64,000 nucleotides of DNA, taken from positions 62,001 through 126,000 of the forward strand of contig JAOACS010000008.1 in the NCBI GenBank assembly GCA_026417655.1. Direction: 5' to 3'. Below, piece by piece: positions 3,921-19,912 of the stretch. This stretch comes from Syntrophobacterales bacterium (GTDB lineage: Bacteria > Desulfobacterota > Syntrophobacteria > Syntrophobacterales > Thermodesulforhabdaceae). Each line of letters opens with the position of its first letter. Position 1 is the first letter of the stretch. Below the pieces are notes generated by a model. The model saw nothing but the letters and a program-made list of their open reading frames with translations, made no database searches and had not been told where the DNA came from. Position numbers and translations under genes: made by a program.

Positions 3921-6503
3921 TTAAAGGTCAGACTCTGTAATATCGTAGATTCCTTGAATGAAGGCCCTGGCCACAACCTCTATCATTCCTTCGGAAGACA
4001 TTAACATATCCATCTGTCTTGTAAATTGAAGAAGGCGACCTAGCTGATCAAGGGTTGACTCTATTACGGAGGGTTCATATTTTTGAAGTCTTCCTTCAAC
4101 TCTGTCAGCGATCACTTCAACGTGGAAATTAAGAAGACTTAGGATTTTTGCTATAGCTCGGGCTCTACGATTTTTCCTTACATCGTCGGCCGCTCCTCCT
4201 TTGAAGGCAAAGGTTATGTAATTTTTGTTAATCGTCTGACCACAATAGCTATCGAGTAGGGCAAAATGGTAGCCAACTCGGGAGCTAAAGTGGAGATACT
4301 TATCCGATACGATAGCGTAGCTCTTATCACCGAATCTTTCCATGAGATGGGGATTCGAAAGTATCTGTTCGCTTAGGACTGAAAAAAAACCTCCAAGTTC
4401 AACAGGCTTAGGAGCTGGTTTAAGAAAGGCCTCGTGGAGCATTCCCTTTAGGAGAGAACGAAATGGAACAGATGTTACAGCATCGACGGGGACCTTATTT
4501 CCCTTTACTTTTTCAAGCAGTAATCCACCTCCTAGGTCTATCACATAAAGATTTAATGGTATTGGCGCATCTAGCCGATAGGCGTTCCCTTCCTCGTCAC
4601 TTAATGAGTCGCTAAGTCTAAACATCTCGCTGTAGGATTTTTCGTGGACAAATCTCATAATATCGTGAAGGGTTTTACAACCTTCGGGAGAGAAATTGGG
4701 GGCCTGAGGATCAATAAGGTTGAGGGGCACAATAAACCTTGCGAGCTTTTCTAGAGTCCTGTAAACAGGGGTTCCCTTCATGGGTGTAGCCTCTCTAGAG
4801 GCCTCCACAATAAGATTCCGAAGGCTTTCTGGGAGTGCTCCTTTGTAGACTTTCCCATGAAAGGCATCTACCGTAATCTCTTCGCCCTCTGGGATGATTT
4901 TTGTGGCCTCCTTTGTATCGAGCAGGGTGGGAATTTTAAACTCTCTGGCCACCGAGGCCATGTGTCCCGTTATACTACCTGCATCGGTTACAATGGCACT
5001 TATGCGATCCATAACGAGCACAAACCTTGGTGACGAGTGGTGAGCAACTAGCACGGCTCCATGGGGGATCCTATGAAGATCATCATTGGAACGGACATGA
5101 AAGGCTGGACCATTTCCAATACCAGGACAGGCTATGGCACCGTTATGGATTAGAACAGGATAGTCTTCAGGGACAATGATCTCCATGATACTTCTGGCCG
5201 ATATGATCTTTAGTGGTCTTGTCTGAAGTAGTACTATGTTATTTTCTGGAGTAAGGGCCCATTCAATATCCTGGGGACAGTTGTAATGGTTTTCTAGCTC
5301 CAATGCATATCTAGCGAGAAGGCGAATATGTTCTTCCTGAAGGCATGGAACCTTTCTTAGATGGTCTTCTACCCTTACTTCGGAGAGACCTCCATCGGGG
5401 TTCAATATGAGTTTTACTGATTTGTCCGAGACATTTATATCGAGAATCTCAAGGTCTTTTCTAACTCGGTAGGTATCAGGTGAGACTACTCCATCTACCA
5501 CATAGGATCCAAGCCCCCAAGAGGCATTTATTACGATGTCACCAGAAGAGGGATTGGAGGGATCTCTCGAATAACATACACCACTTGCTACCGATGGTAT
5601 CATTTCCAAACACCCAACACTCATAGCGCAATACTGGTCATCTATTCCCATTCGGAACCTGTAGGCGATAGCCCTTGGGGTGTAAAGACTAGCTAGCACA
5701 TAACGGTATGATCTAAGGATCTGCTCTCTCGGAACATTGAGGACAGAAACGTATTGCCCCGCAAAGGATATGTCCCCATCTTCTCCTATAGCACTGCTTC
5801 TTAAAGCAACATTTATGTTAGATCCTATGGACTTAGCCAAATTATCATAGGCTTCAAGAATTGCTTGGGCCAAGCCATCGGGGATTTTCCCAGATATGAT
5901 TTTTCCTTGGATGATCTCACTCGATTCTTCAATAGCCTGGAGATTTTGAAAATCGGTTTCCATGAGAATCTTATTTATCTCGTTTCTTAAGTCATTTGCT
6001 TCCATGAATAGGTGAAAGGCATCTACTGTAATGGCAAATCCCCTGGGGATAGGCAGTCCAAGTTTAGTATACATTTCACCTAGGTTAGCGTTCTTCCCGC
6101 CAACTTTCTCTATCATCTCCTGAGAGATATTATTGTATTGAAGAATCCATGCAGCCTCCGATGCCTCTCGGTGTTCCTCTAGGATATTCTTTATTTGGGT
6201 TTGGATATGGTGGTGCACATCGTAAAGCTCTAAGTAACCTTTATTAGAAAGACTATTTAGCCTCTCAATCATCCTGAAGCTGTGAAAGATCGACCTTGTC
6301 GCCATCGATCGAACGTGGCTCATACCAAACATAGTTTTTCCTTGAAGCTTATCCTCTATTTCGGAAATGACCTTCGCCATTTCCGTATTAGAATCCAAAA
6401 GCTCCTTGAAGTGCTGGTATTTGAGACGAAATAATTCCGACTGCCTAGTTGGTGGGTGTTCACGGTTTTTAAAAATCTTACGTAGCCACGAAATTATGGA
6501 CAT
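3921..6503 (-). CDS. PEP-synthase-like ATP-grasp/phosphohistidine protein (paralogue A)
   Basis: 860 residues. Residues 1-125 are a charged helical region found also in the paralogue at 9114. About 130-440 match the PEP/pyruvate-binding ATP-grasp domain (GGKNANLGEM, ALRSSAIGEDG, PQDIEWALT, LLQTRPL). About 455-555 form the swivelling phosphohistidine domain, with His514 in ITGHMASVAREFKIP; PEP synthases usually have S-H where this has G-H. The PEP/pyruvate TIM barrel is absent and replaced by about 300 residues I do not recognise. This argues against a normal PEP synthase; autophosphorylation on His514 and transfer to another partner is inferred. A GAGGA Shine-Dalgarno precedes the ATG, and a sigma-54 promoter lies 58 bases upstream. 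Confidence 0.8.
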   Translation of the reverse strand: MSIISWLRKIFKNREHPPTRQSELFRLKYQHFKELLDSNTEMAKVISEIEDKLQGKTMFGMSHVRSMATRSIFHSFRMIERLNSLSNKGYLELYDVHHHIQTQIKNILEEHREASEAAWILQYNNISQEMIEKVGGKNANLGEMYTKLGLPIPRGFAITVDAFHLFMEANDLRNEINKILMETDFQNLQAIEESSEIIQGKIISGKIPDGLAQAILEAYDNLAKSIGSNINVALRSSAIGEDGDISFAGQYVSVLNVPREQILRSYRYVLASLYTPRAIAYRFRMGIDDQYCAMSVGCLEMIPSVASGVCYSRDPSNPSSGDIVINASWGLGSYVVDGVVSPDTYRVRKDLEILDINVSDKSVKLILNPDGGLSEVRVEDHLRKVPCLQEEHIRLLARYALELENHYNCPQDIEWALTPENNIVLLQTRPLKIISARSIMEIIVPEDYPVLIHNGAIACPGIGNGPAFHVRSNDDLHRIPHGAVLVAHHSSPRFVLVMDRISAIVTDAGSITGHMASVAREFKIPTLLDTKEATKIIPEGEEITVDAFHGKVYKGALPESLRNLIVEASREATPMKGTPVYRTLEKLARFIVPLNLIDPQAPNFSPEGCKTLHDIMRFVHEKSYSEMFRLSDSLSDEEGNAYRLDAPIPLNLYVIDLGGGLLLEKVKGNKVPVDAVTSVPFRSLLKGMLHEAFLKPAPKPVELGGFFSVLSEQILSNPHLMERFGDKSYAIVSDKYLHFSSRVGYHFALLDSYCGQTINKNYITFAFKGGAADDVRKNRRARAIAKILSLLNFHVEVIADRVEGRLQKYEPSVIESTLDQLGRLLQFTRQMDMLMSSEGMIEVVARAFIQGIYDITESDL

Positions 6504-6560
6504 GATGAAATTCCTCGATAAAAGGTTGTAAGAGGGTGTGTTATCCTCTTTTGTGGATTA

Positions 6561-6575
6561 GCAAAGGTTATGCCA
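6561..6575 (-). promoter_or_regulatory. Sigma-54 promoter for PEP-like paralogue A
   Basis: On the minus strand the sequence reads TGGCATAACCTTTGC. The -24 GG and -12 GC are exactly 10 bases apart and both boxes (TGGCA, TTTGC) fit the consensus. The predicted start is near 6549, about 47 bases before the ATG at 6503. Confidence 0.82.
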
Positions 6576-6587
6576 TAGATTAATCTA
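6576..6587. promoter_or_regulatory. Perfect 12-base palindrome
   Basis: TAGATTAATCTA equals its own reverse complement. It abuts the -24 side of the leftward sigma-54 promoter. It could be a regulator site, but its AT-rich content makes chance possible. Confidence 0.4.
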
Positions 6588-6605
6588 ATCACCTCGACTC
6601 TTCTC

Positions 6606-6623
6606 CAAGGTAGAAAAACCTTG
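6606..6623. promoter_or_regulatory. Inverted repeat CAAGGT-N6-ACCTTG
   Basis: Two perfect 6-base arms around a 6-base spacer, lying between the divergent sigma-54 promoters. It is a candidate dimeric activator site. Its right half overlaps a 15-base string that recurs before the DUF2760/Hsp70 operon. Confidence 0.45.
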
Positions 6624-6744
6624 TCATTATTAAAGATTTTTGCATACTGTAAAAATACTGGACATAGAGAAGATACTGGTCTGAAAGTAAAGTTGGCTAG
6701 AAAGGCTTTTTCCTCATCGAGTAGGGTAGGGTGAGATAGGTAGA

Positions 6745-6759
6745 TGGCATAAGTGTTGC
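6745..6759 (+). promoter_or_regulatory. Sigma-54 promoter for the Cache kinase operon
   Basis: TGGCATAAGTGTTGC has the -24 GG and -12 GC exactly 10 bases apart and consensus TGGCA and TTGC boxes. The predicted start is near 6771, giving a leader of about 49 bases to the ATG at 6820. It probably drives the kinase, receiver and second PEP-like protein together. Confidence 0.85.
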
Positions 6760-6819
6760 CACGTGAAATAGAGAACCTTTTAACTCGGACTAGATCTTAC
6801 GGTAGGCTGTGGAGATATT

Positions 6820-8643
6820 ATGCATGAACCTAGATACTACACTCAATTGCGAAACAGAATATTTCTTATTATTGTAAGCACATCTCTTATTCCAGTTATC
6901 TTTATAGCCATGGTTACCGGTTACATGTTCCACACCTCCTATAAAGCCAAGATCGTTGGCTATCTTTCAGAGCTAATTCAAAAACATGCCCAAAGTATAG
7001 ATTCCTTCCTAGCTAACAGTGTCTCAACCGTTACCATGATAACACTCTCAAATGACGCTAAAAAACTTCAGGATCCCGATCATCTCTCGAACATTATTTC
7101 AGTGCTTCAGACTTCCCACGGTGGTGTCTTTGTTGATATTGGCTTTATTAGAGAGGATGGGATTCAGGTTGCCTACGCAGGTCCATTCAAGCTAGGTATG
7201 GCCTTTTACGGCAATTCGGAATGGTTTAGGGAGGCTATAAAGAACCCTTACTCTATAAGTGATGTATTCTTGGGTCTCAGAGGCCTTCCTCATTTTGTAA
7301 TAGCGGTAAGGCTTGAAGATGAGGACCGAATATGGGTGCTTCGATCGACCATAGATTTTGCTTATTTTACCAAAATTGTTGAAAATATAAAAATAGGGGA
7401 GACGGGAGAGGCTTTTATCCTAAGTAAAGACGGTAATCTCCAAACGTCGCTAAATTCTCCCTATTCTAAAGACTTACTTAAATCGATAGCAACGGTTGTT
7501 TTTTCTGATTCTTTAGGGAGAGAAAGAGAAGGATACCCCATTGGTGATATTTACCACACCAACCCGAAGCACTCCTACGACAAGCCTGTTACACTTGAAA
7601 CAAGGAAGACGACCTATGTGTTTAAAAAAGAGGATGCTAGTGGAAGATCTATAATTTATGTAGCCGTTCCACTCAGGATGAACAATTGGGCTCTTGTTTA
7701 TCGCCAGTGGGATTCCGAGGTTTTTATGGACATTTACAAAGCCAGGTCCATTGTATTCAGTGTAATTGTCATTAGTATCTTTCTATTGACCGGTTTAGGA
7801 TGGAGGCTTTCCAATCGAGTTGTCGAGAGAATAAAGCAGGTTGACAGGGAAAAGGATGCTATGAATGACCAGATTATTGAGGCAGGAAAACTTGCTGCCT
7901 TGGGGGAACTAGCAGCCGGCATTGCCCATGAGATTAATAATCCTGTTGCGATTATGGTCGAGGAAGCAGGATGGATTGAAGACTGTCTTAGAGATTTACC
8001 CGATAAGGAAATGGAGATCTATAAAGAGATAGCTAAGTCCGCAAAGCAGATCAAAACCCAAGGGGCTAGATGTAGGGAAATTACCCATAAGCTTCTTACC
8101 TTTGCTAGACGCAGTGATACCCTAGAAAGGCGAGTCTTTCTTAATACCCTTCTTAACGAGATCGCAATCCTATGCGAACAGAGGGCCCGATATGCTAAGG
8201 TTAAGATAGAGAAAAAGTTTGATGAGGAGATCCCTGCGGTTGCCATATCTCCAACGGAGATGCAACAGGTTATTCTTAATCTTATAAATAATGCAATCGA
8301 TGCTATGGAAACTCAGTGCGGAGGAGTGCTAACCCTATCTACCAAGTTTATCAATGATTGGGTTGTGCTAGAAGTGAGCGATACGGGACCTGGCATTCCC
8401 AAGTCAATTCTTCCAAGAATTTTTGACCCCTTCTTCACGACCAAACCTGTCGGTAAAGGAACCGGTTTAGGGCTTTCTATCTGCTACGGCATTATAAAGA
8501 AAGCTGGGGGCAATATAGAAGTGGAAAGTGAAGTAGGTAAAGGGACCACATTCAGAATATGGTTACCTCCCGTGCAACCTCCTAATAGTCTTATTGTAGG
8601 GGCTTCTCCTGAGGATTTGTCATCTATCAAAATGAGGAACTAG
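6820..8643 (+). CDS. Cache-domain sensor histidine kinase
   Basis: 607-residue membrane kinase. A transmembrane segment at about residues 13-33 and a second near 309-327 bracket a periplasmic Cache-type sensor region (about 35-300). Next come a short coiled linker without an obvious HAMP domain, a HisKA H-box with His370 in AAGIAHEINNPV, and an ATPase domain with NLINNAIDAM, DTGPGIP and GKGTGLGLSIC. The ATG has GGAG 7 bases upstream. The receiver gene starts 23 bases downstream, so the two are a likely cognate pair. The ligand is unknown. Confidence 0.93.
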   Translation: MHEPRYYTQLRNRIFLIIVSTSLIPVIFIAMVTGYMFHTSYKAKIVGYLSELIQKHAQSIDSFLANSVSTVTMITLSNDAKKLQDPDHLSNIISVLQTSHGGVFVDIGFIREDGIQVAYAGPFKLGMAFYGNSEWFREAIKNPYSISDVFLGLRGLPHFVIAVRLEDEDRIWVLRSTIDFAYFTKIVENIKIGETGEAFILSKDGNLQTSLNSPYSKDLLKSIATVVFSDSLGREREGYPIGDIYHTNPKHSYDKPVTLETRKTTYVFKKEDASGRSIIYVAVPLRMNNWALVYRQWDSEVFMDIYKARSIVFSVIVISIFLLTGLGWRLSNRVVERIKQVDREKDAMNDQIIEAGKLAALGELAAGIAHEINNPVAIMVEEAGWIEDCLRDLPDKEMEIYKEIAKSAKQIKTQGARCREITHKLLTFARRSDTLERRVFLNTLLNEIAILCEQRARYAKVKIEKKFDEEIPAVAISPTEMQQVILNLINNAIDAMETQCGGVLTLSTKFINDWVVLEVSDTGPGIPKSILPRIFDPFFTTKPVGKGTGLGLSICYGIIKKAGGNIEVESEVGKGTTFRIWLPPVQPPNSLIVGASPEDLSSIKMRN

Positions 8644-8666
8644 AATCTATGGAGGAATAATCCGAG

Positions 8667-9068
8667 ATGCAGCCACAGGAAACAAAATATCCCCAGAGAA
8701 CACTTAAGGTACTAATTGTAGATGATGAGGTGGCCTATGTGGATGTGCTTCGAAGGCGCATGCAAAAAAGAAATGTTATAGTTGAAACCGCCAATAGTGG
8801 CAGTGAAGCTATAAGAAAACTTAGAGAGTCGTCCTTTGATATTGCGATCATAGATCTAAAAATGGAAGATATGAGCGGAATTGAGGTCCTTAAAATCTTT
8901 AAAAAGATGGATCCCGATATGCCCGTTATTATGATAACTGGTCATGGTTCTGAAGAGGCAGCCCAAAATGGTATAACCTGTGGTGCCTATGATTATCTTA
9001 TGAAACCCTGTGATTTTGAAACTCTTATGGAAAAGATCAACAAGGCGGTATTAAACAAAAGGGGTTGA
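8667..9068 (+). CDS. Stand-alone response regulator receiver
   Basis: 133-residue CheY-like receiver with no output domain. The acidic pair is in LIVDDE (residues 17-21), the phosphoacceptor is Asp63 in IIDLKMEDMSG, and Thr/Lys switch residues are in MITGHGS and LMKPCDF. It lies between a histidine kinase and a PEP-synthase-like gene. Lacking an output domain, it probably acts by protein contact or as a phosphorelay intermediate; the neighbouring PEP-like protein or the GAF kinase are possible partners (inference). Confidence 0.92.
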   Translation: MQPQETKYPQRTLKVLIVDDEVAYVDVLRRRMQKRNVIVETANSGSEAIRKLRESSFDIAIIDLKMEDMSGIEVLKIFKKMDPDMPVIMITGHGSEEAAQNGITCGAYDYLMKPCDFETLMEKINKAVLNKRG

Positions 9069-9113
9069 TGTTTTTTTATTAAAAACAATTTATTCGAGAG
9101 GTAAGGACTGGCT

Positions 9114-11738
9114 GTGCAATTCTTAAAAAAATGGTTAAAATACATAGGAAAACGGGAAGAAAAATCCTTAGATTCGAACGAGTTAAGGCTTATTTTTCAA
9201 AATAGATACCATAACTTTAAACTTCTTCTTAACGCGAACAACCGATCCCTTGAGGTTATGACAGAGATTGAAGAGAGGTTAAGAGGCCGTGAACCCTTTG
9301 GTATGACCTTTATCCGTTCTCGGGTAACTAGAGTAAGTGCCAGCGTATTTCAAATGATACAGTACTTAAACAATCTCTCATCTCAACGTTATCTCAAGCT
9401 TTATTCTAGATTTCGGGATATAGAAGAATCTATAAGGCAAATCCTGGAAACAAAGATCACCACAACCAATGCTCCTCTTGTAATCCCAATGGATGAGCTC
9501 AGCCGAGATTCGATAAATCTTGCTGGTTCCAAAATGGCGACCCTTGGAGAACTCAAGCACGCCCTTGGCATAAAAGTCCCAGACGGTTTTGTTATCACTT
9601 CAGAGGCCTATAGAAGGTTTTTGATGCATAACGATCTTATTTCCGAAATTAACCGGCTCATTCAGAAAACTGCCGCTGAGACTATAGATAATTTTTTTGC
9701 TCTGAGTTCCTCTATCCAACAACTCATATTAAATTCTCGGATCCCAGAAGAGGTTGAAGATGCCATCATATGTCAGACGAATGAGATGCTAAAAAAACAC
9801 GGTCCATCCCTTACCTTTGCCTTAAGAAGCAGTGCCCTTGGAGAAGATACCCTTGGGCATTCTTTTGCGGGTCAATACCGATCAATACTTAACGTTAATC
9901 CTGACCACATCCTCCAGTCCTACAAAGAAGTAGTTGCAAGTATGTATGGCCTTCCGGCCATGACTTACCGCTTCCGGCACGGTATTCGTGATGAAGATGT
10001 AGCCATGTGCGTAGGTTGTCTTGCCATGATTGATCCGATAGCGTCAGGTGTGGTTTACACAAAAAGTCCCTTTGAGTCGGGCGAGGAAGATAACATTTTA
10101 ATTCATTCAGTATGGGGACTTCCAAAACCCGTGGTAGATGGTTCTCTTGAGGCAGATCTCTTTGTAGTGTCTCGTCGAGAGCCCTTCGATATAACATCCG
10201 TTAACCTAGCTATTAAAGATGTTGCCTATATTTCACTCCCAGAGGAAGGTGTAGCACGGGTGGAAATGCCCCCTCATCAGTGGGATATACCGTCTCTTAC
10301 CGAAGATCAGATGAAGGAGCTCGCGGGAATAGCTCTTTCCATTGAGCGTTACTATGGAAGGCCCCAGGACATAGAGTGGGCGCTGGATGGGATGGGAAAC
10401 TTTATTATTCTCCAAAGCCGGCCTTTACAGGTTCGAGGACATGAAAAAAGTCAGGATGACCAGAAAATTCGCAAGCCTTTTAATCCCGAGCATGTTATCC
10501 TTAAGGGTGGAGTGACGGCGAGTCCAGGGGTAGCTTCTGGAAAGGCCTTTGTGGTAAAGCGAGATGCGGATGCTTTAAGGTTTCCAGATGGTGCTATTCT
10601 TGTGACTGAACTCGCCCTTCCTAGATGGGCATCTCTTTTAGGAAGGGCTTCGGCGGTGATAACAGAGGTGGGAAACGTGGCTGGACATTTGGCAAATGTG
10701 GCAAGAGAGTTCAAAATTCCGGCAATATTTGGGCTTTCAGGAGCTACTCGTTTACTTAGAGAGGGCGATGAGATTACGATAGACGCTGACGAAAGGGTTG
10801 TCTTGAAAGGGCTTGATGCGATCCCTCTGTCGGAGCGTGAGACTGAAAAGGGCATGATGATTGGAACCCCGGTTTATAAGGTTCTTTACGATGTTTCTCG
10901 GCTTATCGTTCCCCTTTACCTTACTGACCCGGATTCTATAGATTTTAAACCAGACAAGTGCTCCACCTATCATGATATTACTCGATTCTGCCACGAGATG
11001 TCTGTTCGAGAAATGTTTCGTTTTGGTAGCGAATTCAAATTTGCCGAAAAAGCAGCAAAACGGCTCGTAACTGAGAAGAAAATGCAGTTCTGGATATTGG
11101 ATCTAAATGACGGGTTTCATCAGGGAGCGGTCTCTCCTGATGCTCAGTATGTCCGAATTGAGGATATAGCCTCCATACCGATGATAGCTTTATGGGAGGG
11201 CATGATGTCTGTGCCCTGGGGTGGACCTCCACCAATTAAAGCTAAGGGGTTTTTGTCTGTATTGGCTGAGTCCACTATTAATCCCAGTCTTGATCCAGCG
11301 GTTGCTAACAATATGGCGATTAAAAACTACTTTATGATATCCAAAAATTTCTGTTCCCTTCAGTCACGTTTCGGATATCACTTCTCTGAAGTAGAGGCCT
11401 TGGTTAGTGAGCGGACAAGAGAAAACTATGCTAGTTTCCATTTCAAGGGAGGAGCGGCAAATTTAGATAGGCGAGTCCTTAGAGCGAAGTTTATAGCTTC
11501 TCTTTTGGATCTATGGCGCTTTCGCTGTACCGTAAATGGTGATGCCTTATCTGCGAGAATAGAGGGAAGGGATATTGAAGAGATGAAGGATGCTCTTCGA
11601 GTGCTTGGTTATTTGATTATCCACACACGACAGCTTGATATGGTTATGACTGATCCTCAATCGGTTACATTTTATCGGGAAAAGATGCTCGCCGACCTCC
11701 AGAAACTTTGCAATGTGCTAATGCCGGTTCTAGATTAA
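9114..11738 (+). CDS. PEP-synthase-like ATP-grasp/phosphohistidine protein (paralogue B)
   Basis: 874 residues with the same order of parts as the divergent gene at 3921: N-terminal helical region, ATP-grasp (GSKMATLGEL, ALRSSALGED, PQDIEWALDG, ILQSRPLQV), swivelling domain with His525 in VAGHLANVAREFKIP, and a C-terminal region of about 300 residues replacing the PEP/pyruvate barrel. Shared C-terminal strings include FHFKGGAA here versus FAFKGGAA in paralogue A, and SRFGYHF versus SRVGYHF. The GTG start at 9114 follows a GAGAGG/TAAGGA stretch. The pair arose by duplication and has diverged well. ATP-dependent autophosphorylation is plausible; the acceptor is unknown. Confidence 0.8.
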   Translation: MQFLKKWLKYIGKREEKSLDSNELRLIFQNRYHNFKLLLNANNRSLEVMTEIEERLRGREPFGMTFIRSRVTRVSASVFQMIQYLNNLSSQRYLKLYSRFRDIEESIRQILETKITTTNAPLVIPMDELSRDSINLAGSKMATLGELKHALGIKVPDGFVITSEAYRRFLMHNDLISEINRLIQKTAAETIDNFFALSSSIQQLILNSRIPEEVEDAIICQTNEMLKKHGPSLTFALRSSALGEDTLGHSFAGQYRSILNVNPDHILQSYKEVVASMYGLPAMTYRFRHGIRDEDVAMCVGCLAMIDPIASGVVYTKSPFESGEEDNILIHSVWGLPKPVVDGSLEADLFVVSRREPFDITSVNLAIKDVAYISLPEEGVARVEMPPHQWDIPSLTEDQMKELAGIALSIERYYGRPQDIEWALDGMGNFIILQSRPLQVRGHEKSQDDQKIRKPFNPEHVILKGGVTASPGVASGKAFVVKRDADALRFPDGAILVTELALPRWASLLGRASAVITEVGNVAGHLANVAREFKIPAIFGLSGATRLLREGDEITIDADERVVLKGLDAIPLSERETEKGMMIGTPVYKVLYDVSRLIVPLYLTDPDSIDFKPDKCSTYHDITRFCHEMSVREMFRFGSEFKFAEKAAKRLVTEKKMQFWILDLNDGFHQGAVSPDAQYVRIEDIASIPMIALWEGMMSVPWGGPPPIKAKGFLSVLAESTINPSLDPAVANNMAIKNYFMISKNFCSLQSRFGYHFSEVEALVSERTRENYASFHFKGGAANLDRRVLRAKFIASLLDLWRFRCTVNGDALSARIEGRDIEEMKDALRVLGYLIIHTRQLDMVMTDPQSVTFYREKMLADLQKLCNVLMPVLD

Positions 11739-11768
11739 CCCATGGAGACATCGACCAGGGGGTCTAAT

Positions 11769-13037
11769 ATGACCGAGAATCGGGTAGTTCTTTGCTTTGA
11801 TCAAATTCTTGTCAATGATAGGATATTTAGACCTTTGATAAATCTTAGTAACTTCCTTTCTCAGGCTAGTAGCCTTAAAGAGATACTTAATGGAAGTATT
11901 CAACTGATTCTTCAGGAATTTAACATTGATGCTGGACGAATCTACCTCATGGATCAAAGTAGAGGCGATCTTTACTTAGCCGCCTATCAGGGGATTGAGA
12001 TTTCCGGTCTTGAAAGGATTCAGATCGGACAGGGGTTTACGGGGAAGGCAGTAGAACTTCGCTCCTTTATAGCCTTTAGAGTAGAGGAGCTGGAAGATAA
12101 GGAGAGAGTGAAGCTACTTCTCAGTAAGGGTTTGAATATTATATATTGTGTTCCCTTTGTAGTTATGGGAAAAGTAGAGGGAGTAATGAACCTTGGATCG
12201 AAGAGGGATACCATGATCTCCCATCAAGATATGCAAATTCTTTTTCTAATGGGACATCATATCGGTGTTGCCATAGCCCATGCGAAACTCTGCGAGGCCC
12301 TTAATGAGAAGATCCGGCTTCTTGAAGAGCGTAAAGAAACAATAAAATTTTTTGCCTATTCGGTAAGCCATGATCTCAAAAGCCCTGCTATAGGCCTTTA
12401 TGGTCTTTCAAAAAGGCTTATGGAAAAACACGGTAGCGATCTTCCAGAGAAGGCTCAGCTCTACTGTAGGCAGATCATGAAGGCTGCAGAAGAGATAGTG
12501 GCCCTTGTAGAATGTATAAATAACTACATTTCTGCTAGAGAAACCCTGGAAGAACCTCAGTCATTTCCCGTCTCTGAACTTATTGAAACTATAAAGTCCG
12601 AGTTCAAAGGCAGGCTGGAGAAGCAGGGTGTAACGCTCGTTGTTCAAAACAGTTTGCCATCTATAGTTGGATACCCTCACCTGCTTCTAAGAGCCCTGAG
12701 AAATCTTGTAGACAACGCTCTTAAACATGGTGGTAGCGACCTTTCCCGTATCCAGATAGAGGTCGAGGAAACTCCCGATTTTTGGATTATAGCCGTTAAG
12801 GACAACGGTGTTGGCATTCCACCTGACATGGTTGATAAGATATTCGAACCCTTCAGAAGGGGTGTGACCAAAACAGAGGGATCAGGACTTGGATTGGCGA
12901 TAATATCGGAAGTGGCTAATAGGCATAATGGCAGGGTGTGGGTAGAATCCTCTCAAGAAAAGCGTAGCACAACCTTTTATCTTACAATCAGTAAACACTT
13001 AGGTGGTAAAGAATGCAAACCTCCAACTTTACAGTGA
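11769..13037 (+). CDS. GAF-domain cytosolic sensor histidine kinase
   Basis: Soluble kinase of about 422 residues with no membrane segment. A GAF domain (about residues 35-175) is followed by HisKA with His201 in SVSHDLKSP and an ATPase domain with LVDNALKHG, DNGVGIP and GSGLGLAI. I place the start at ATG 11769, which has AGGGGG 6 bases upstream, rather than the in-frame ATG at 11742, which has no Shine-Dalgarno. It follows PEP-like paralogue B by 30 bases and precedes the acyl-CoA synthetase by 11. The H-box resembles phytochrome-like kinases. It may sense a cytosolic small molecule through GAF (inference). Confidence 0.9.
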   Translation: MTENRVVLCFDQILVNDRIFRPLINLSNFLSQASSLKEILNGSIQLILQEFNIDAGRIYLMDQSRGDLYLAAYQGIEISGLERIQIGQGFTGKAVELRSFIAFRVEELEDKERVKLLLSKGLNIIYCVPFVVMGKVEGVMNLGSKRDTMISHQDMQILFLMGHHIGVAIAHAKLCEALNEKIRLLEERKETIKFFAYSVSHDLKSPAIGLYGLSKRLMEKHGSDLPEKAQLYCRQIMKAAEEIVALVECINNYISARETLEEPQSFPVSELIETIKSEFKGRLEKQGVTLVVQNSLPSIVGYPHLLLRALRNLVDNALKHGGSDLSRIQIEVEETPDFWIIAVKDNGVGIPPDMVDKIFEPFRRGVTKTEGSGLGLAIISEVANRHNGRVWVESSQEKRSTTFYLTISKHLGGKECKPPTLQ

Positions 13038-13048
13038 GGTAGGAGATT

Positions 13049-15760
13049 ATGGGACTCCGAGGACTTGATGCTATCTTTAAGCCCCAGAGCATAGCAGTGG
13101 TGGGTGCTACGGAACGGGAGGGCTCTGTGGGACGGGCTGTAATGAAAAACCTTTTGGAAGCACAATTCCCTGGTCTCATCTATCCGGTCAATAAAAATAG
13201 GAAAGAGGTGTGGGGCAAAAGGGCTTTTCCCTCCGTTAGGGCTATAGAGAATCAGGTTGATCTTGCAATAATAGCCACACCGATAGAAGAAGTTCCTCAG
13301 GTGTTGGAGGATTGCAGCTTTGTGGGGACTAGAGGAGCCATTATTCTTTCGGCAGGAGGTAGGGAGACCGGAGAAGAGGGACGTATTATTGAGGAGCGAA
13401 TAGAGGAAGTGGCTCGTTCCAAGGAAATTCGGTTAATAGGACCTAATTGTCTTGGGATAATTTGTCCCGATCGCCATCTTAACGCGAGCTTTGCTTCCCA
13501 TATGCCTTCTTCTGGACGACTCGCCTTTATCTCCCAGAGTGGAGCCCTGTGTACCGCTATTCTTGACCTCGCTGTAGAGGAGAAGATCGGTTTTAGCTAT
13601 TTCGTGAGTATAGGATCCATGCTGGATGTGGATTTTGGAGATCTCATTGATTACTTTGGTAACGATACAAAGGTAAGTAGCATTATTGTCTATATGGAAG
13701 GACTTACAAATCTTAGAAAATTCATGAGTGCTGCCCGTTCCGTGTCACAGGTAAAGCCTATCGTTGTTTTAAAGGCTGGCAGAAGTCAAGCGGGGGCTCA
13801 GGCAGCTTCATCTCACACTGGAGCTATGACGGGAGAAGATGTGCTATACGACGCCGCCTTCGAGAGGGCGGGTATTGTCAGGGTAAGGGAGATCAGAGAA
13901 CTTTTTGACTGTGCTGAACTCCTTGCAAAGCAATCGAGACCGTCGGGACCAAAGCTTGTTGTTATAACTAACGCTGGGGGACCTGGGGTTATGGCGGCGG
14001 ATGCAGTTTCCGATGCAGGCCTTGAACTGTCAAATCTTGGGACCGAAATTACGAATGAACTAGATAGCTTCCTACCTCGTTGTTGGAGTCGAGGAAATCC
14101 TATAGACATCTTAGGAGATGCTACCCCAGATCGTTACAGCAAAACGATTCAAACCTGTTTAGGATCCTCCGATGTGAACGGCATCCTTGTAATTTTAACC
14201 CCACAAGCGATGACGGATCCAACGGCCGTTGCCGAGACATTGTCAAAGATGGTCATCCGTAGACCTATGCCTGTTCTCGCATGCTGGATGGGAGGCCACG
14301 ATGTGCTTCCAGGGAGAGCAATCCTAAATAAGGCTGGTATTCCCACCTATGAAACCCCCGAGGAAGCGGTAAGGGCCTTTAAATATCTTTATGATTACTC
14401 GAAGACTCTTGAAGCTATTCAACAAATTCCTCCAAGATTTTCTAAATTCATCACCTCTGATAGAGCGGAGACGGCTAGGTTAATAGAAGAAGGGTTAGAA
14501 AAATATTGGGGAATACTAGGAGAGTGGCAATCGATGGCTATTCTACGGGCCTATGGGTTTCCTGTAAATAGCATAGAGCTTGCGAAAACGAAAGAAGAGG
14601 TCTGCCAACTAGCTAAAACAATGGAACCACCCTTTGTAATGAAGATAGCCTCACCCGATATCCTTCACAAGACAGAGGCTCGAGGTGTCAGGTTAAATCT
14701 CACAACGGAGGATGACATTGCAAAGGCCTACGATGCCATAATGGCTGCCGCCAAGGAATACAAACCCGATGCGCGAATAGATGGTGTAACCCTCCAGACA
14801 ATGATAAAGGACCATGATTATGAATTACTTATAGGTGCGAAACAGGATCCGCTTTTCGGACCAGTCATTCTGTTCGGTTGGGGCGGGATTTTTACAGAGA
14901 TTTTAAAGGATCGGGCCATAGGGATACCACCTCTGAATCGAGCCCTTGCTAAGCTCATGATAGATAAGACCAAGGTATCTAAACTACTGAAAGGTTACCG
15001 AGGACGTCCCCCTGCGGATTTTGAACTTCTCGAGGAATTTCTTGTGCGATTGGCTAATCTTGTGACTGATTTCCCTCAAATTCAGGAACTCGATATGAAT
15101 CCAGTCCTCATAAAGAATGGTAAACCAATAGTGGCCGATGCTAGAATGATTCTTAAACCATCCAAGGTGGAAGCTCCAATGCATCTTATAATAAGCCCCT
15201 ATCCAGATCAATATGAATGGCACGTGGAGACTTCTGGGGGCATGAAGTTGTTTGTGAGACCAGTAAGACCTGAGGATGCACCGCTTTTTGAGGATCTTTT
15301 TAAGGTTCTTTCTCCTACAAGTGTCTATTTCAGATTCTTCAGACCAATGAAGGCTCTTCCCCATTCACTCCTTATCCGTTTTACTCAGATTGATTACGAT
15401 CGAGAAATAGCTCTGGTTGCCATTGATAAAGAATCACAACAGGAGCGGATGCTGGGAGTGGCAAGGGTTATAACGGGAGCGGATAAGGATGAAGCTGAGT
15501 TTGCAGTGCTAGTAGGGGATCCATGGCATGGGAAAGGTATTGGAGCAACTCTTTTAAGGAAGTGCCTTGCGATTGCAAAGGAGCGAGGAATAAAGAGCGT
15601 ATTTGGTATAGTGCTTCCTGAAAATACCCAGATGTTAGCTCTGGGGAGAAAGCTAGGCTTTACTATATGCAAGGCTGTAGGGGGAGAATGTGAGTTAAGG
15701 ATAGACCTTGAGAAGATGTCCTTTGAAGAGTTAGAGGGTTCCATAAACGATGGAGGTTAA
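13049..15760 (+). CDS. ADP-forming acyl-CoA synthetase fused to GNAT acetyltransferase (Pat/AcdAB-like)
   Basis: 903 residues: CoA-binding domain (VVGATEREGSVGR, residue 17 on), succinyl-CoA-synthetase-like domains, an ATP-grasp domain (about 475-700) and a C-terminal GNAT domain (about 725-895) with acetyl-CoA loop WHGKGIGATLL. The phosphorylatable histidine of ADP-forming acetyl-CoA synthetases is retained as His256 in SSHTGAM; as I recall, this is lost in the enterobacterial Pat enzymes. It may therefore be both an ATP-yielding acyl-CoA synthetase and a protein lysine acetyltransferase. ATG at 13049 has GGAG upstream. The stop overlaps the first in-frame ATG of the next gene. Confidence 0.88.
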   Translation: MGLRGLDAIFKPQSIAVVGATEREGSVGRAVMKNLLEAQFPGLIYPVNKNRKEVWGKRAFPSVRAIENQVDLAIIATPIEEVPQVLEDCSFVGTRGAIILSAGGRETGEEGRIIEERIEEVARSKEIRLIGPNCLGIICPDRHLNASFASHMPSSGRLAFISQSGALCTAILDLAVEEKIGFSYFVSIGSMLDVDFGDLIDYFGNDTKVSSIIVYMEGLTNLRKFMSAARSVSQVKPIVVLKAGRSQAGAQAASSHTGAMTGEDVLYDAAFERAGIVRVREIRELFDCAELLAKQSRPSGPKLVVITNAGGPGVMAADAVSDAGLELSNLGTEITNELDSFLPRCWSRGNPIDILGDATPDRYSKTIQTCLGSSDVNGILVILTPQAMTDPTAVAETLSKMVIRRPMPVLACWMGGHDVLPGRAILNKAGIPTYETPEEAVRAFKYLYDYSKTLEAIQQIPPRFSKFITSDRAETARLIEEGLEKYWGILGEWQSMAILRAYGFPVNSIELAKTKEEVCQLAKTMEPPFVMKIASPDILHKTEARGVRLNLTTEDDIAKAYDAIMAAAKEYKPDARIDGVTLQTMIKDHDYELLIGAKQDPLFGPVILFGWGGIFTEILKDRAIGIPPLNRALAKLMIDKTKVSKLLKGYRGRPPADFELLEEFLVRLANLVTDFPQIQELDMNPVLIKNGKPIVADARMILKPSKVEAPMHLIISPYPDQYEWHVETSGGMKLFVRPVRPEDAPLFEDLFKVLSPTSVYFRFFRPMKALPHSLLIRFTQIDYDREIALVAIDKESQQERMLGVARVITGADKDEAEFAVLVGDPWHGKGIGATLLRKCLAIAKERGIKSVFGIVLPENTQMLALGRKLGFTICKAVGGECELRIDLEKMSFEELEGSINDGG

Positions 15761-15764
15761 GGTA

Positions 15765-16736
15765 ATGAATGGAAGGGGAATTCTCGTAGCAGTCGATGTA
15801 TCCGAGTGGGCCTATAGGGTTGTTGAATATGCGGGAATAGTCTTAGGGGCTGAAAGTGATATACCGATTACGATTTTGCATGTGATGAGCCCTCTTCCTG
15901 AGAGCTTTTGGGATGTGGAGAGTAGCCCTCTTGTCACTTACAGACCGGAAGCTATGCTGGCATGGGATGTGGCTCAGAGAAAGGCTGTGGAAGCCGAGAT
16001 GGAAAAGCTTGCAAATATTTTAGTGGGTCAAGGTATCTCACGGGATCGAATTAACATTATGGTTCAGCAGCGTCAGGTGGGTATAGCACGAGACATTGTC
16101 TTTGAAGCTCAGAAAGGTTATAAGGCCCTGGTGGTAGGAAGAAGAGGAGCAAGTAGATTAAAGGAGCTTATTATTGGAAGTATCGCATCAAAGGTTCTTT
16201 CAAGACTTACCACCGTTCCCCTGTGGGTTGTTGGAGAGAAACCCCAAGACAAGGGTATCGTTATAGGATTAGATCCCTCAGAAGAGGCCATGAAGGCCGT
16301 AAAATACGTAGCCTCTATTTTGGGAGGAAAAGACCGACCCGATTGGACAATTCATCTGATCCATGTGGCGAGAGCTCTCGAACTTCTTACAGTAAATTAC
16401 GATCCCTTTTTTACCCCCGACGAACGGGTTGAATGGATGAGACGAGTAGAGCAGCAGCATATGGAAGAGATTAGGGCAAAAATGGGGGATGTCTTCGAGG
16501 AGGCGAGAAAGATATTAGAAGAGGCTGGTATAAGGAGGAAAAGGATCCAAGAAGATATCATCTCTGGAGCTTATAGTAGAGCCGCTACACTTATAGAAGA
16601 AGCCCGAAAGCGTAACTGTGGAACTATAGTTGTTGGCCGTCGGGGACTTTCAAAGATTGAAGAATTTTTCCTAGGTCGGGTAAGCAGTAAAACACTTCAG
16701 ATGGCTTCAGATAAGACCGTGTGGATTGTAGGATAA
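15765..16736 (+). CDS. Tandem universal stress protein (two UspA domains)
   Basis: About 323 residues with two UspA domains: the first from ILVAVDVSEWA to VGRRGASRLKELIIGSIASKVL, the second from GIVIGLDPSEEAMKAV to VVGRRGLSKIEEFFLGRVSSKTL. Both keep the ATP-binding G-x2-G-x9-G-S/T-type tail in recognisable form. The ATG at 15765 is preferred over 15750 because GGAGG lies 8 bases before it. It closes the signalling island and is likely co-transcribed with the acyl-CoA synthetase/GNAT gene. Nucleotide sensing and partner regulation are family-level expectations. Confidence 0.9.
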   Translation: MNGRGILVAVDVSEWAYRVVEYAGIVLGAESDIPITILHVMSPLPESFWDVESSPLVTYRPEAMLAWDVAQRKAVEAEMEKLANILVGQGISRDRINIMVQQRQVGIARDIVFEAQKGYKALVVGRRGASRLKELIIGSIASKVLSRLTTVPLWVVGEKPQDKGIVIGLDPSEEAMKAVKYVASILGGKDRPDWTIHLIHVARALELLTVNYDPFFTPDERVEWMRRVEQQHMEEIRAKMGDVFEEARKILEEAGIRRKRIQEDIISGAYSRAATLIEEARKRNCGTIVVGRRGLSKIEEFFLGRVSSKTLQMASDKTVWIVG

Positions 16737-17572: not shown

Positions 17573-18310
17573 ATGGATGAATGGGAGCTAGAAAGGCTTC
17601 AGGAGAAATTAGTTAACGTATTGATGAAACTAAGAAATACTTACGGAGGAGCCCTTTCTACGCTCCATATTAAAAGGAGCCTTCCCATTGAAGTGAAGAG
17701 ACTTATTACCAAATTCTTTAATCTATTCGATGAATCATGCCGAGCCTACATCGCCTATCGCCATCGTGTTTTGGGTGATTTGGATAAGGTAAGATGCAAG
17801 ATAGGTTGTTCCTTTTGCTGTTATCAAATACCCTATGGCGCCTCTTATCTTGAATATTTATACCTCTATCATGGCATAACCGAAGTAGCTCCAGGGAGAT
17901 TATTTCTTCCGGCCCTTCTTGATCGAAATGAAGTGCTTTCGCTGATAGTTTATGATCTGGGAGAGACAGGGAATAGGTCCTCTTACACAGAGGCCTTAAT
18001 AAGCTATTCAAAAAGGATGATTCCCTGTCCTTTCTTAGATAAAAGGTCGGCGCTATGTCTACTCTATTTTTTTCGTCCTCTAAGTTGTAGAATGCATGTA
18101 AGTTTTGCTCCTCCTAGATTTTGTGATCCTCTAAACCATGAACCATGGCGCTGTGGTGGGGTCAACATAGAGCCTTCTGATATGTTAAAGGAAGCACTAA
18201 ATAGGGTTGATGAGGTATTTCCATACTCGCTTTCGCGCTTTCTCACTATCGGTGTCGTCGAGTTTATGGTAAACATTATGGGATGTCGCCCCATTCGTTG
18301 GGAGATGTAG
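17573..18310 (+). CDS. YkgJ-family cysteine cluster protein
   Basis: 245 residues. It carries the YkgJ-type metal-chelating cluster: CKIGCSFCCYQIP near residue 80 (C-x3-C-x2-CC), then CPFLDKRSALCLLYFFRPLSCR near residue 150 and a final CDPLNHEPWRCGG. These match the CxxCxxCC family predicted to bind zinc or iron. The biochemical role is unknown. ATG 17573 has a GAAGGGG Shine-Dalgarno. It starts a rightward cluster with the ASKHA, FtsB-like and DUF362 genes. Confidence 0.82.
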   Translation: MDEWELERLQEKLVNVLMKLRNTYGGALSTLHIKRSLPIEVKRLITKFFNLFDESCRAYIAYRHRVLGDLDKVRCKIGCSFCCYQIPYGASYLEYLYLYHGITEVAPGRLFLPALLDRNEVLSLIVYDLGETGNRSSYTEALISYSKRMIPCPFLDKRSALCLLYFFRPLSCRMHVSFAPPRFCDPLNHEPWRCGGVNIEPSDMLKEALNRVDEVFPYSLSRFLTIGVVEFMVNIMGCRPIRWEM

Positions 18311-18340
18311 CTCATTGGAAATAACAGGGGAGATTTGGTG

Positions 18341-19912
18341 ATGAGTGGTGAGACTAAATATCTGCCTCTGGTAGTGGGTGAATCTTTTGAGCTGGAAAGA
18401 CCAAGCCTTAAAGACAATTCAGCCGACTGGGATCGTTTGATAAAGCACCTGAATAGAAGGGGTTTTGATCCTATATCTTCCCAGGGGATACCCTTAGATA
18501 GAATTAAAAGTATCTCTAGCACTGTTAGAAAAAGGGGATTTTCGGGCAGGGCAATTCTCGCCTATGTTATTGATGCGTGGGATATTATCGAAATTGGAGA
18601 TTCTAAAAGTAGTATTCTGGGAGCAGCCTTCGATCTTGGCACAACGAGGATAGCCTTTTACCTTGTAGATCTTTTAGGGGCTAAAATTCTTTATGAAACT
18701 TCTATTTCTAATCCCCAGATCCCCTTCGGCGAGGACATTCTCACCCGTATAAATTATGCGACAACACCTGAAAAACTGAGGCAGTTACAGCTACTTCTCA
18801 TTGACGCATTTAATAGCCTCATGGTAAGGGTTGCGGAGGAGCTTCAATTTGATACAAATTCCATTTATGCGATGGCCGTCGCGGGAAATACTACAATGAG
18901 CCATTTTTTCCTTGGGCTTGATCCATCCCACATCTGTAGAGAGCCTTACATTCCGGTGGTAAATAACTTTCCTATCTTGCGCGCTAAAGATCTAGGGCTT
19001 AAGATGAATCCCGAGGGTATAGTTTATGTGTTTCCCAATGTTGGCTCCTATTTTGGAGGAGATGCTGTAGCGGGCATTCTGGCCTCTGGTATGCATCGTC
19101 AGGAGAATGTATCGGTCTTTGTTGATGTTGGAACAAATGCAGAAGTGGTCCTTGGAAATAGAGATTGGATGATCGCCTGTGCTGGGGCAGCAGGTCCTGC
19201 TTTGGAAGGAGGTGTTGTAGAACGTGGTATGATGGCTATGCCAGGGGCAATAGACCGGATAAGGATCGATCCTGAGACACTGGAATTAACCTATCACACT
19301 ATAGGTGACCAAAAACCCCTTGGTATATGTGGCTCTGGTCTTATCGATCTAATAGCCGAAATGTTTCAGGCTGGTATTTTAACTATTCAGGGAAAAATAA
19401 ATACTAGGATAGAGCATCCTCGGATTGTAGCCACACCTGATGGAATGGGTTTTGTCGTTGCCTTCTCCCATGAGACAGCGGACGGTAGGGATCTAATTAT
19501 ATCCGACATAGATATAGGAATTCTTCTCAAGTCCAAGGCGGCTATGTATACCATCTTAAATATTATAGCCCGTAAGGTTGGACTTGATATTCACGATATA
19601 GATAGGTTCTACGTTGCTGGAACTTTTGGAAATCATATTGATCCTCAGATGGCCATTCGCATAGGCATGCTACCTGATATTCCCATAGAAAAATTCGTCC
19701 CCCTTGGTAACACCTCAGGTCAGGGTGCTTCAATGCTTCTGCTTAATCGGAATATGTTTCAGGAGATTAGGGAAATATGTGCTAAGTTGACCTACGTTGA
19801 ATTAAATGTCAATGTTGAACTTATCCATGAATTCAGAGGTGCCCTATTTCTACCTCATACGGATCCGTCACTTTTTCCCTCTGTAAAGATTCCACAAATA
19901 GCGAAGGGATGA
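18341..19912 (+). CDS. RACE-like ASKHA (DUF4445) corrinoid-activator protein lacking the ferredoxin domain
   Basis: About 523 residues. From residue about 95 it follows the ASKHA part of reductive activators of corrinoid proteins: AFDLGTTRIAFYLVD, AVAGNTTMSHFFLG, FVDVGTNAEVVLG, CAGAAGPALEGG, GICGSGLIDLIAEM, YVAGTFGNHIDP. Residues 1-90 resemble the linker/middle region, but the usual N-terminal [2Fe-2S] domain with its cysteines is absent, so electrons would come from another protein. The DUF362 ferredoxin two genes downstream is a candidate. ATG 18341 is preferred over TTG 18335 by its spacing to AGGGGAG. Confidence 0.85.
   Translation: MSGETKYLPLVVGESFELERPSLKDNSADWDRLIKHLNRRGFDPISSQGIPLDRIKSISSTVRKRGFSGRAILAYVIDAWDIIEIGDSKSSILGAAFDLGTTRIAFYLVDLLGAKILYETSISNPQIPFGEDILTRINYATTPEKLRQLQLLLIDAFNSLMVRVAEELQFDTNSIYAMAVAGNTTMSHFFLGLDPSHICREPYIPVVNNFPILRAKDLGLKMNPEGIVYVFPNVGSYFGGDAVAGILASGMHRQENVSVFVDVGTNAEVVLGNRDWMIACAGAAGPALEGGVVERGMMAMPGAIDRIRIDPETLELTYHTIGDQKPLGICGSGLIDLIAEMFQAGILTIQGKINTRIEHPRIVATPDGMGFVVAFSHETADGRDLIISDIDIGILLKSKAAMYTILNIIARKVGLDIHDIDRFYVAGTFGNHIDPQMAIRIGMLPDIPIEKFVPLGNTSGQGASMLLLNRNMFQEIREICAKLTYVELNVNVELIHEFRGALFLPHTDPSLFPSVKIPQIAKG

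Follow-up and report, generated by a model that had tools for sequence, protein, structure and literature searches.

The window, which is the whole stretch of 64,000 nucleotides analysed here, contains the genes of two PEP-synthase-like proteins, A and B, together with those of two histidine kinases (HK1 and HK2) and a lone receiver. The gene order is A (on the minus strand), HK1, lone receiver, B, HK2, an acyl-CoA synthetase-GNAT gene and a universal stress protein gene. The main genes, and the domains of A and B, are as follows:

3921-6503, minus strand: protein A, PEP-synthase-like, 860 aa, whole gene
6174-6452, minus strand: shared N-terminal helical region of A, residues 18-110, without Pfam match
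5193-6110, minus strand: ATP-grasp domain (PPDK_N) of A, residues 132-437, with K137, R235, E414, Q427 and R429 conserved
4854-5069, minus strand: swivelling phosphohistidine domain of A, residues 479-550
4962-4964, minus strand: codon of the catalytic His514 of A
3924-4790, minus strand: unannotated C-terminal domain of A, residues 572-860, with C609, H613, D614, R617, H620, E621, H746, N761, R780, D800, R829 and D832
6820-8643, plus strand: HK1, dCache histidine kinase with HisKA and HATPase
8667-9068, plus strand: lone receiver, 133 aa, Asp63 at 8853-8855
9114-11738, plus strand: protein B, PEP-synthase-like, 874 aa, whole gene, GTG start as called
9171-9467, plus strand: shared N-terminal helical region of B, residues 20-118
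9516-10469, plus strand: ATP-grasp domain (PPDK_N) of B, residues 135-452
10581-10793, plus strand: swivelling domain of B, residues 490-560, His525 at 10686-10688
10851-11735, plus strand: unannotated C-terminal domain of B, residues 580-874
11742-13037, plus strand: HK2, GAF histidine kinase, HATPase strong, HisKA weak

An earlier, sequence-only reading of this DNA had assigned the coordinates of A and B and the positions of His514, His525 and Asp63, all of which are correct. The two histidine kinases and the lone receiver that it described between and beside the two proteins are also present, with the HisKA match of HK2 (18.7 bits) falling below the Pfam cut-off of 26.9, whereas its HATPase match is strong. 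HK2 is directly followed by an ADP-forming acyl-CoA synthetase fused to GNAT in a PatZ-like layout (13049-15760, plus strand), and this by a double universal stress protein (15750-16736, plus strand). Further along lie the genes of a Cys-cluster protein with a weak CxxCxxCC match (17573-18310, plus strand) and, next to it, a RACo-type corrinoid-activation ATPase (18335-19912, plus strand). Neither a TSUP/TauE gene nor a dual-specificity phosphatase gene was found among the genes around A and B in the window.

Pfam analysis detected the PPDK_N domain in A and B (E 1e-96 and 2e-86, respectively) and the PEP-utilizers mobile domain (E 1e-19 and 8e-18), and gave no match above cut-off for the first ~115 and the last ~290 residues of either protein. 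In an alignment, His525 of B occupies the column of the catalytic His of the Neisseria PEP synthase 2OLS, and His514 of A falls in the same column. These results agree with the earlier claim that both proteins keep an ATP-grasp domain and a swivelling histidine. The proposed shared N-terminal region was likewise recovered, at 37% identity between A and B; the corresponding values are 39% for the ATP-grasp domain, 45% for the swivelling domain and 33% for the C-terminal domain, so all four regions are common to both proteins. The dikinase-derived family to which they belong is here called PEPSL (PEP-synthase-like). Residues K137, R235, E414, Q427, R429 and H514 (numbering of A) are kept in at least 144 of 149 family sequences. 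The G-H that had been pointed out in place of S-H in the swivelling domain of A and B is indeed there, and G precedes the His in 127 of the 149 sequences; it is thus the usual form in this family and no mark of a new mechanism, members of the nitrate cluster discussed below having S-H.

Like A and B, PEP synthase and PPDK have an ATP-grasp domain followed by a swivelling phosphohistidine domain, but A and B differ from them in having no PEP/pyruvate barrel, extra N-terminal helices and an unannotated C-terminal domain. Matches to the profiles PEP_synth and PRK06464 extend over the first 570 residues of A and B, as they might if the two were ordinary but diverged PEP synthases or PPDKs that obtain the acceptor half from another protein. 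However, the scores of 342-383 bits are far below the NCBIfam equivalog cut-offs (598 for PEP_synth and 740 for PRK06464), and neither protein has a Pfam match to the barrel domain PF02896 (PEP-utilizers_C). Alignment of the C-terminal region with the PpsA barrel gave an hhalign probability of 0.3%, and with the PPDK/EI barrels 0.2%, compared with 99.1% for the positive control, in which the two barrel sets were aligned with each other. The AlphaFold2 models (mean pLDDT 87) predict antiparallel hairpins and helices for the C-terminal part of A and B, and do not contain the eight alternating strands and helices of a barrel. A hidden barrel is excluded by the hhalign results and the models, and the earlier statement that the barrel is replaced by about 300 unrecognised residues, for which a profile and structure analysis of both C-terminal regions had been proposed, stands at ~290 residues. 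Moreover, the same genome encodes elsewhere a complete canonical PPDK and an enzyme I, which carry the only PEP/pyruvate barrels detected there; the organism can thus do without A and B in that reaction. We consider it very improbable that they are diverged PEP synthases. Two more PPDK_N proteins are encoded in this genome (G000:C19:12933-13748(-) and C17:77376-78443(+), in frames of 1436 and 971 aa), also without a match to the PEP/pyruvate barrel.

Loss of the barrel has a precedent in VadK (Rv1127c), which, like A and B, is PPDK-derived and barrel-less, autophosphorylates His422 and has been proposed to be a regulatory histidine kinase (PMC12636432). Unlike A and B, VadK is truncated, has no replacement domain and has not been reported with a two-component system. 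Judging from this precedent and from the intact ATP-grasp and swivel residues, ATP-dependent phosphorylation of His514 and His525 is likely.

The C-terminal domain is among the better conserved parts of the PEPSL family. Its signature consists of C-x3-H-D-x2-R-x2-H-E followed by H, N, GG, R, D, R and D; D614, H620, E621, H746, G770, R780, D800 and D832 are invariant in all 149 sequences, and C609, H613, R617, N761 and R829 differ in at most four of them. Conservation over 149 sequences is not a chance observation. Nevertheless, the domain as found in 79 members gave only scattered single chance matches in Pfam and NCBIfam, its best profile match to PDB sequences had an E of 0.36, and a fold search yielded no significant PDB match (Foldseek best E 0.027). 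The best VIA-align result (Z 6.0 over 64 residues) concerns a ferredoxin-like alpha/beta arrangement at residues 190-265, and kinship on this basis was rejected because the arrangement is common; a weak match to arginine kinase ranked 14th (Foldseek E 0.18). Given the limits of the fold-search tool, we do not claim a new fold. In whole-genome profile searches, the domain was mostly found in frames long enough to include the ATP-grasp and swivelling domains, and in a few shorter pieces.

Five PEPSL paralogues are degenerate: L088 6742-9270(-), L089 6228-8705(-), L114 (L114_1), L135 6390-9137(+) and L136 5963-8650(+). The copies at L088, L089, L135 and L136 adjoin other PEPSL paralogues. All five have lost ATP-grasp residues, and in two of them the swivelling His is also replaced by Arg, while the C-terminal invariants are kept, save for R617, which is His in three. 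The domain thus has a role independent of the protein's own ATP chemistry and His; in the degenerate paralogues it perhaps acts in a complex with an active sister protein.

Rifampin phosphotransferase (RPH), HpeI and related kinases resemble A and B in that they keep the ATP-grasp domain and the His swivel and have the acceptor part exchanged, and RPH 5HV1 and HpeI 9GOJ were among the best structure matches. Of the relatives whose acceptor domain has been replaced, the majority of those studied by experiment use a small molecule or a polymer as substrate, and the invariant polar set (C-x3-HD-x2-R-x2-HE ... H ... R ... D) resembles an active site. PEPSL proteins might likewise be metabolite kinases that phosphorylate a small molecule in the C-terminal domain, as rifampin phosphotransferase and phenylphosphate synthase do, with the two-component genes merely regulating them or with the product being a signal or an intermediate of sulfur metabolism. 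This is the main rival to a protein target, but the degenerate paralogues keep the polar set although they have no need of a phosphoacceptor site, and the output-less lone receivers that adjoin the gene suggest control at the protein level; we regard a metabolite target as possible, though doubtful. The acceptor domains of RPH and HpeI differ from those of A and B in sequence, and in the case of RPH also in place, and kinases of this type have no known link to receivers or TSUP transporters, unlike PEPSL. The C-terminal domain had no significant match to known folds, the RPH-type acceptor included, an absence that is not proof.

One scan of bacterial genomes identified 39 PEPSL loci, nearly all in Desulfobacterota and one in Riflebacteria. 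A match to B was present in 56 of 60 relatives of the window genome, the weakest of which may be ordinary dikinases. The C-terminal domain occurs in many paralogues across Desulfobacterota, including Desulfovibrionaceae, where it was detected in 54 of 79 genomes, often in several copies. A and B form separate clades in the tree, and in many genomes their genes share a contig, at a distance of 5 to 20 kb. A search of genomes for the gene order, as had been suggested, showed A-HK-receiver-B-HK in a genome of the same genus (L091).

The neighbourhoods of 40 non-redundant PEPSL members with 5 kb on both sides, whose loci are not phylogenetically independent, were compared with those of 13 canonical PEP-synthase genes from a single family (Desulfovibrionaceae): a histidine kinase was present within 5 kb at 37 of the 40 PEPSL loci and at none of the 13 controls (Fisher p 7e-10), a lone receiver at 34 versus none (p 3e-8) and a TauE/TSUP permease at 26 versus none (p 4e-5). 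Histidine kinase and lone receiver occurred together at 32 of the 40 loci. Receivers are encoded by separate genes at all loci seen, and the long frames inspected included no fusion of a receiver or a kinase to PEPSL; instead, they contain phosphatase fusions, lectin-like fusions, or unrecognised or doubtful N-terminal extensions (L143, L144). The PEPSL proteins of ~1030-1070 aa at L080 720-3911(-), L081, L083, L084, L085 and L097 have an extra C-terminal domain that is lectin-like or 3-keto-disaccharide-hydrolase-like according to weak Pfam matches.

The earlier reading had interpreted the locus as an ATP-driven phosphohistidine signalling module. The intact machinery residues, the replaced barrel and the association with histidine kinases and lone receivers, which is strong and statistically clear over many genomes, support this interpretation in part; phosphate exchange with Asp63 is its more speculative element. 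According to that proposal, PEPSL would be an alternative source of phosphate in a phosphorelay, with its His donating phosphate to Asp63 of the receiver or taking it back. Transfer from phospho-His to Asp is the usual chemistry of receivers, and the receiver gene directly adjoins PEPSL at many loci. On the other hand, a conventional histidine kinase is already available to the receiver at nearly every locus, the two proteins are separately encoded at the loci seen and were not fused in the long frames inspected, and the fold carrying the swivelling His is unrelated to HisKA or HPt. We rank this phosphate exchange next after a small-molecule target and consider it unlikely.

Two distinct TSUP proteins recur at PEPSL loci. 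One, of 351 aa, is accompanied by a small membrane protein and a DUF4881 protein, and the other, of 424 aa, by a membrane protein of 239 aa. The DUF4881 protein beside the 351-aa permease is conserved (L012 1882-2502(+) and homologues). Among the 79 Desulfovibrionaceae genomes, at least one of the two TSUP types is present in 50 of the 54 with PEPSL versus 1 of the 25 without (p 4e-15, in counts that treat related genomes as independent), and the difference is also seen within the genomes below 3 Mb and within those above 3 Mb. On contig C15 of the window genome lies an orthologue of the 351-aa protein (78% identity) together with both of its partners, and other contigs hold fragments of the 424-aa type. 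The gene of this second type seems to be split into two halves, on contigs C3 and C28 (L168/L169), with a receiver gene beside one of them; the split is probably an assembly break. Judged by its genes, among which is dsrA, this genome is that of a sulfate reducer. Sulfate reducers are rich in TSUP proteins, whose predicted cargo is sulfur-based molecules (PMC5840216). The A/B pair may therefore act on a transporter whose gene lies in another part of the genome. Because the family travels with sensor kinases, receivers and transporters of the sulfur-anion type, A and B are probably ATP-powered regulators and not PEP makers.

The sequence-only reading knew of no described system of this layout. 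In this it was mistaken, since the nitrate cluster DVU0251-DVU0245 of Desulfovibrio matches it and has mutant phenotypes (PMC4001038). Transposon insertions in this cluster of D. vulgaris, and in Dde_0597-Dde_0605 of D. alaskensis, result in nitrate resistance (Korte et al. 2014, PMC4001038). The cluster is annotated as encoding a TauE-like permease, a hypothetical protein, a PtxB-like binding protein, a histidine kinase, a receiver, a protein with PPDK_N and mobile domains, and a dual-specificity phosphatase. Mutants of the TauE, receiver and dikinase-like genes withstand 100 mM nitrate, and the fitness values in the two strains were +9.14 and +3.08 for the receiver, +2.18 and +3.41 for the dikinase-like gene, and -6.04 and +2.08 for the phosphatase (PMC4001038). 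Its authors proposed that the cluster lets nitrate leak in through a thiosulfate transporter (PMC4001038). That the dikinase-like gene shares its mutant phenotype with a transporter and a receiver (PMC4001038) also speaks, in our view, against a metabolite kinase.

As in the window, a histidine kinase, a lone receiver and a protein with PPDK_N and mobile domains are together in this cluster, in the same order. However, the cluster has one PEPSL gene, whereas the window has two, and none of the adjacent phosphatase, PtxB-like protein and TauE (L137, DvH) is found beside A and B. The full seven-gene order is present at L137, where TauE was identified by Pfam and the PEPSL protein carries the A/B-type C-terminal domain; L126, L129 and L132 have most of the order and dikinase-like proteins with the same domain. 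DVU0246 is linked to PEPSL by gene order, annotation and gene lengths: DVU0247 and the receivers of L126 and L137 are each 119 aa, and DVU0245 is 369 aa compared with 370 aa in L126, while DVU0246, annotated as 744 aa, is shorter than the proteins of about 820-850 aa that are probably homologous to it. The layout has thus already been described genetically; as far as the open-licence literature shows, the mechanism and the wide family have not, and no other paper in that literature gives DVU0246 or its neighbours a mechanism.

In the nitrate cluster, the neighbour of PEPSL is a dual-specificity phosphatase whose HCxxGxxRTG loop is intact and which also has a Cys-rich domain. At L079 3013-6792(+), L082 1480-5238(-) and L086 2070-5837(+), PEPSL is fused at its C-terminus to such a phosphatase/Cys-rich protein, giving a chain of ~1255 aa. 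Fused and separate versions are 41-44% identical over ~370 aa, and the three fusions group as a sister clade to the nitrate-cluster proteins (support 0.998). The presence of kinase and phosphatase on one chain suggests that they share a substrate. Because the mutant phenotypes of the phosphatase differ between the two strains, its role in reversal is put forward only with reserve.

We propose that PEPSL is a dikinase-derived phosphohistidine kinase, which serves as a two-component effector controlling the uptake of inorganic anions in sulfate reducers, and we give this reading a probability of about 0.5. The anion is probably a sulfur oxyanion. The histidine kinase would sense a signal and phosphorylate the lone receiver; the receiver, having no output domain, would bind PEPSL and switch it; PEPSL would spend ATP to phosphorylate the swivelling His514 or His525 and hand the phosphate to a target via the conserved C-terminal domain, which takes the place of the PEP/pyruvate barrel; and transport of the TSUP/TauE type would change, to be reversed by the dual-specificity phosphatase where present. 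The domain anatomy and its conservation, the barrel loss, the neighbourhoods, the TSUP co-occurrence and the phosphatase fusions are direct observations; as chemistry, these steps, the phosphate target among them, are what we infer.

A protein target, with the receiver as an allosteric switch, is favoured for three reasons: the receivers stand alone, a kinase is already present at nearly every locus, and the receiver, the dikinase-like gene and the transporter share one mutant phenotype. A receiver that acts by binding and an enzyme that acts on transport would fit the genetics and the neighbourhoods equally well as, or better than, phosphate exchange. Tentatively, the whole chain may run from the lone receiver to the dikinase-derived enzyme, which would pass the phosphate of ATP, via an undescribed domain, to a membrane transport system or to a protein that regulates it, and a tyrosine-phosphatase-type eraser, sometimes on the same chain, would undo this; the module may in this way set the uptake of sulfur anions, and hence the sensitivity to nitrate, in sulfate-reducing bacteria generally.

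If this mechanism is right, two-component signalling would gain a hitherto unrecognised type of effector, and many proteins of sulfate reducers that are annotated as PEP synthases would carry a misleading name. The analysis points to a conserved, unannotated domain and to the residues to test in it. It also ties the unexplained nitrate resistance of Desulfovibrio, which is of practical interest for the control of souring, to a large family of "PEP synthase-like" proteins.
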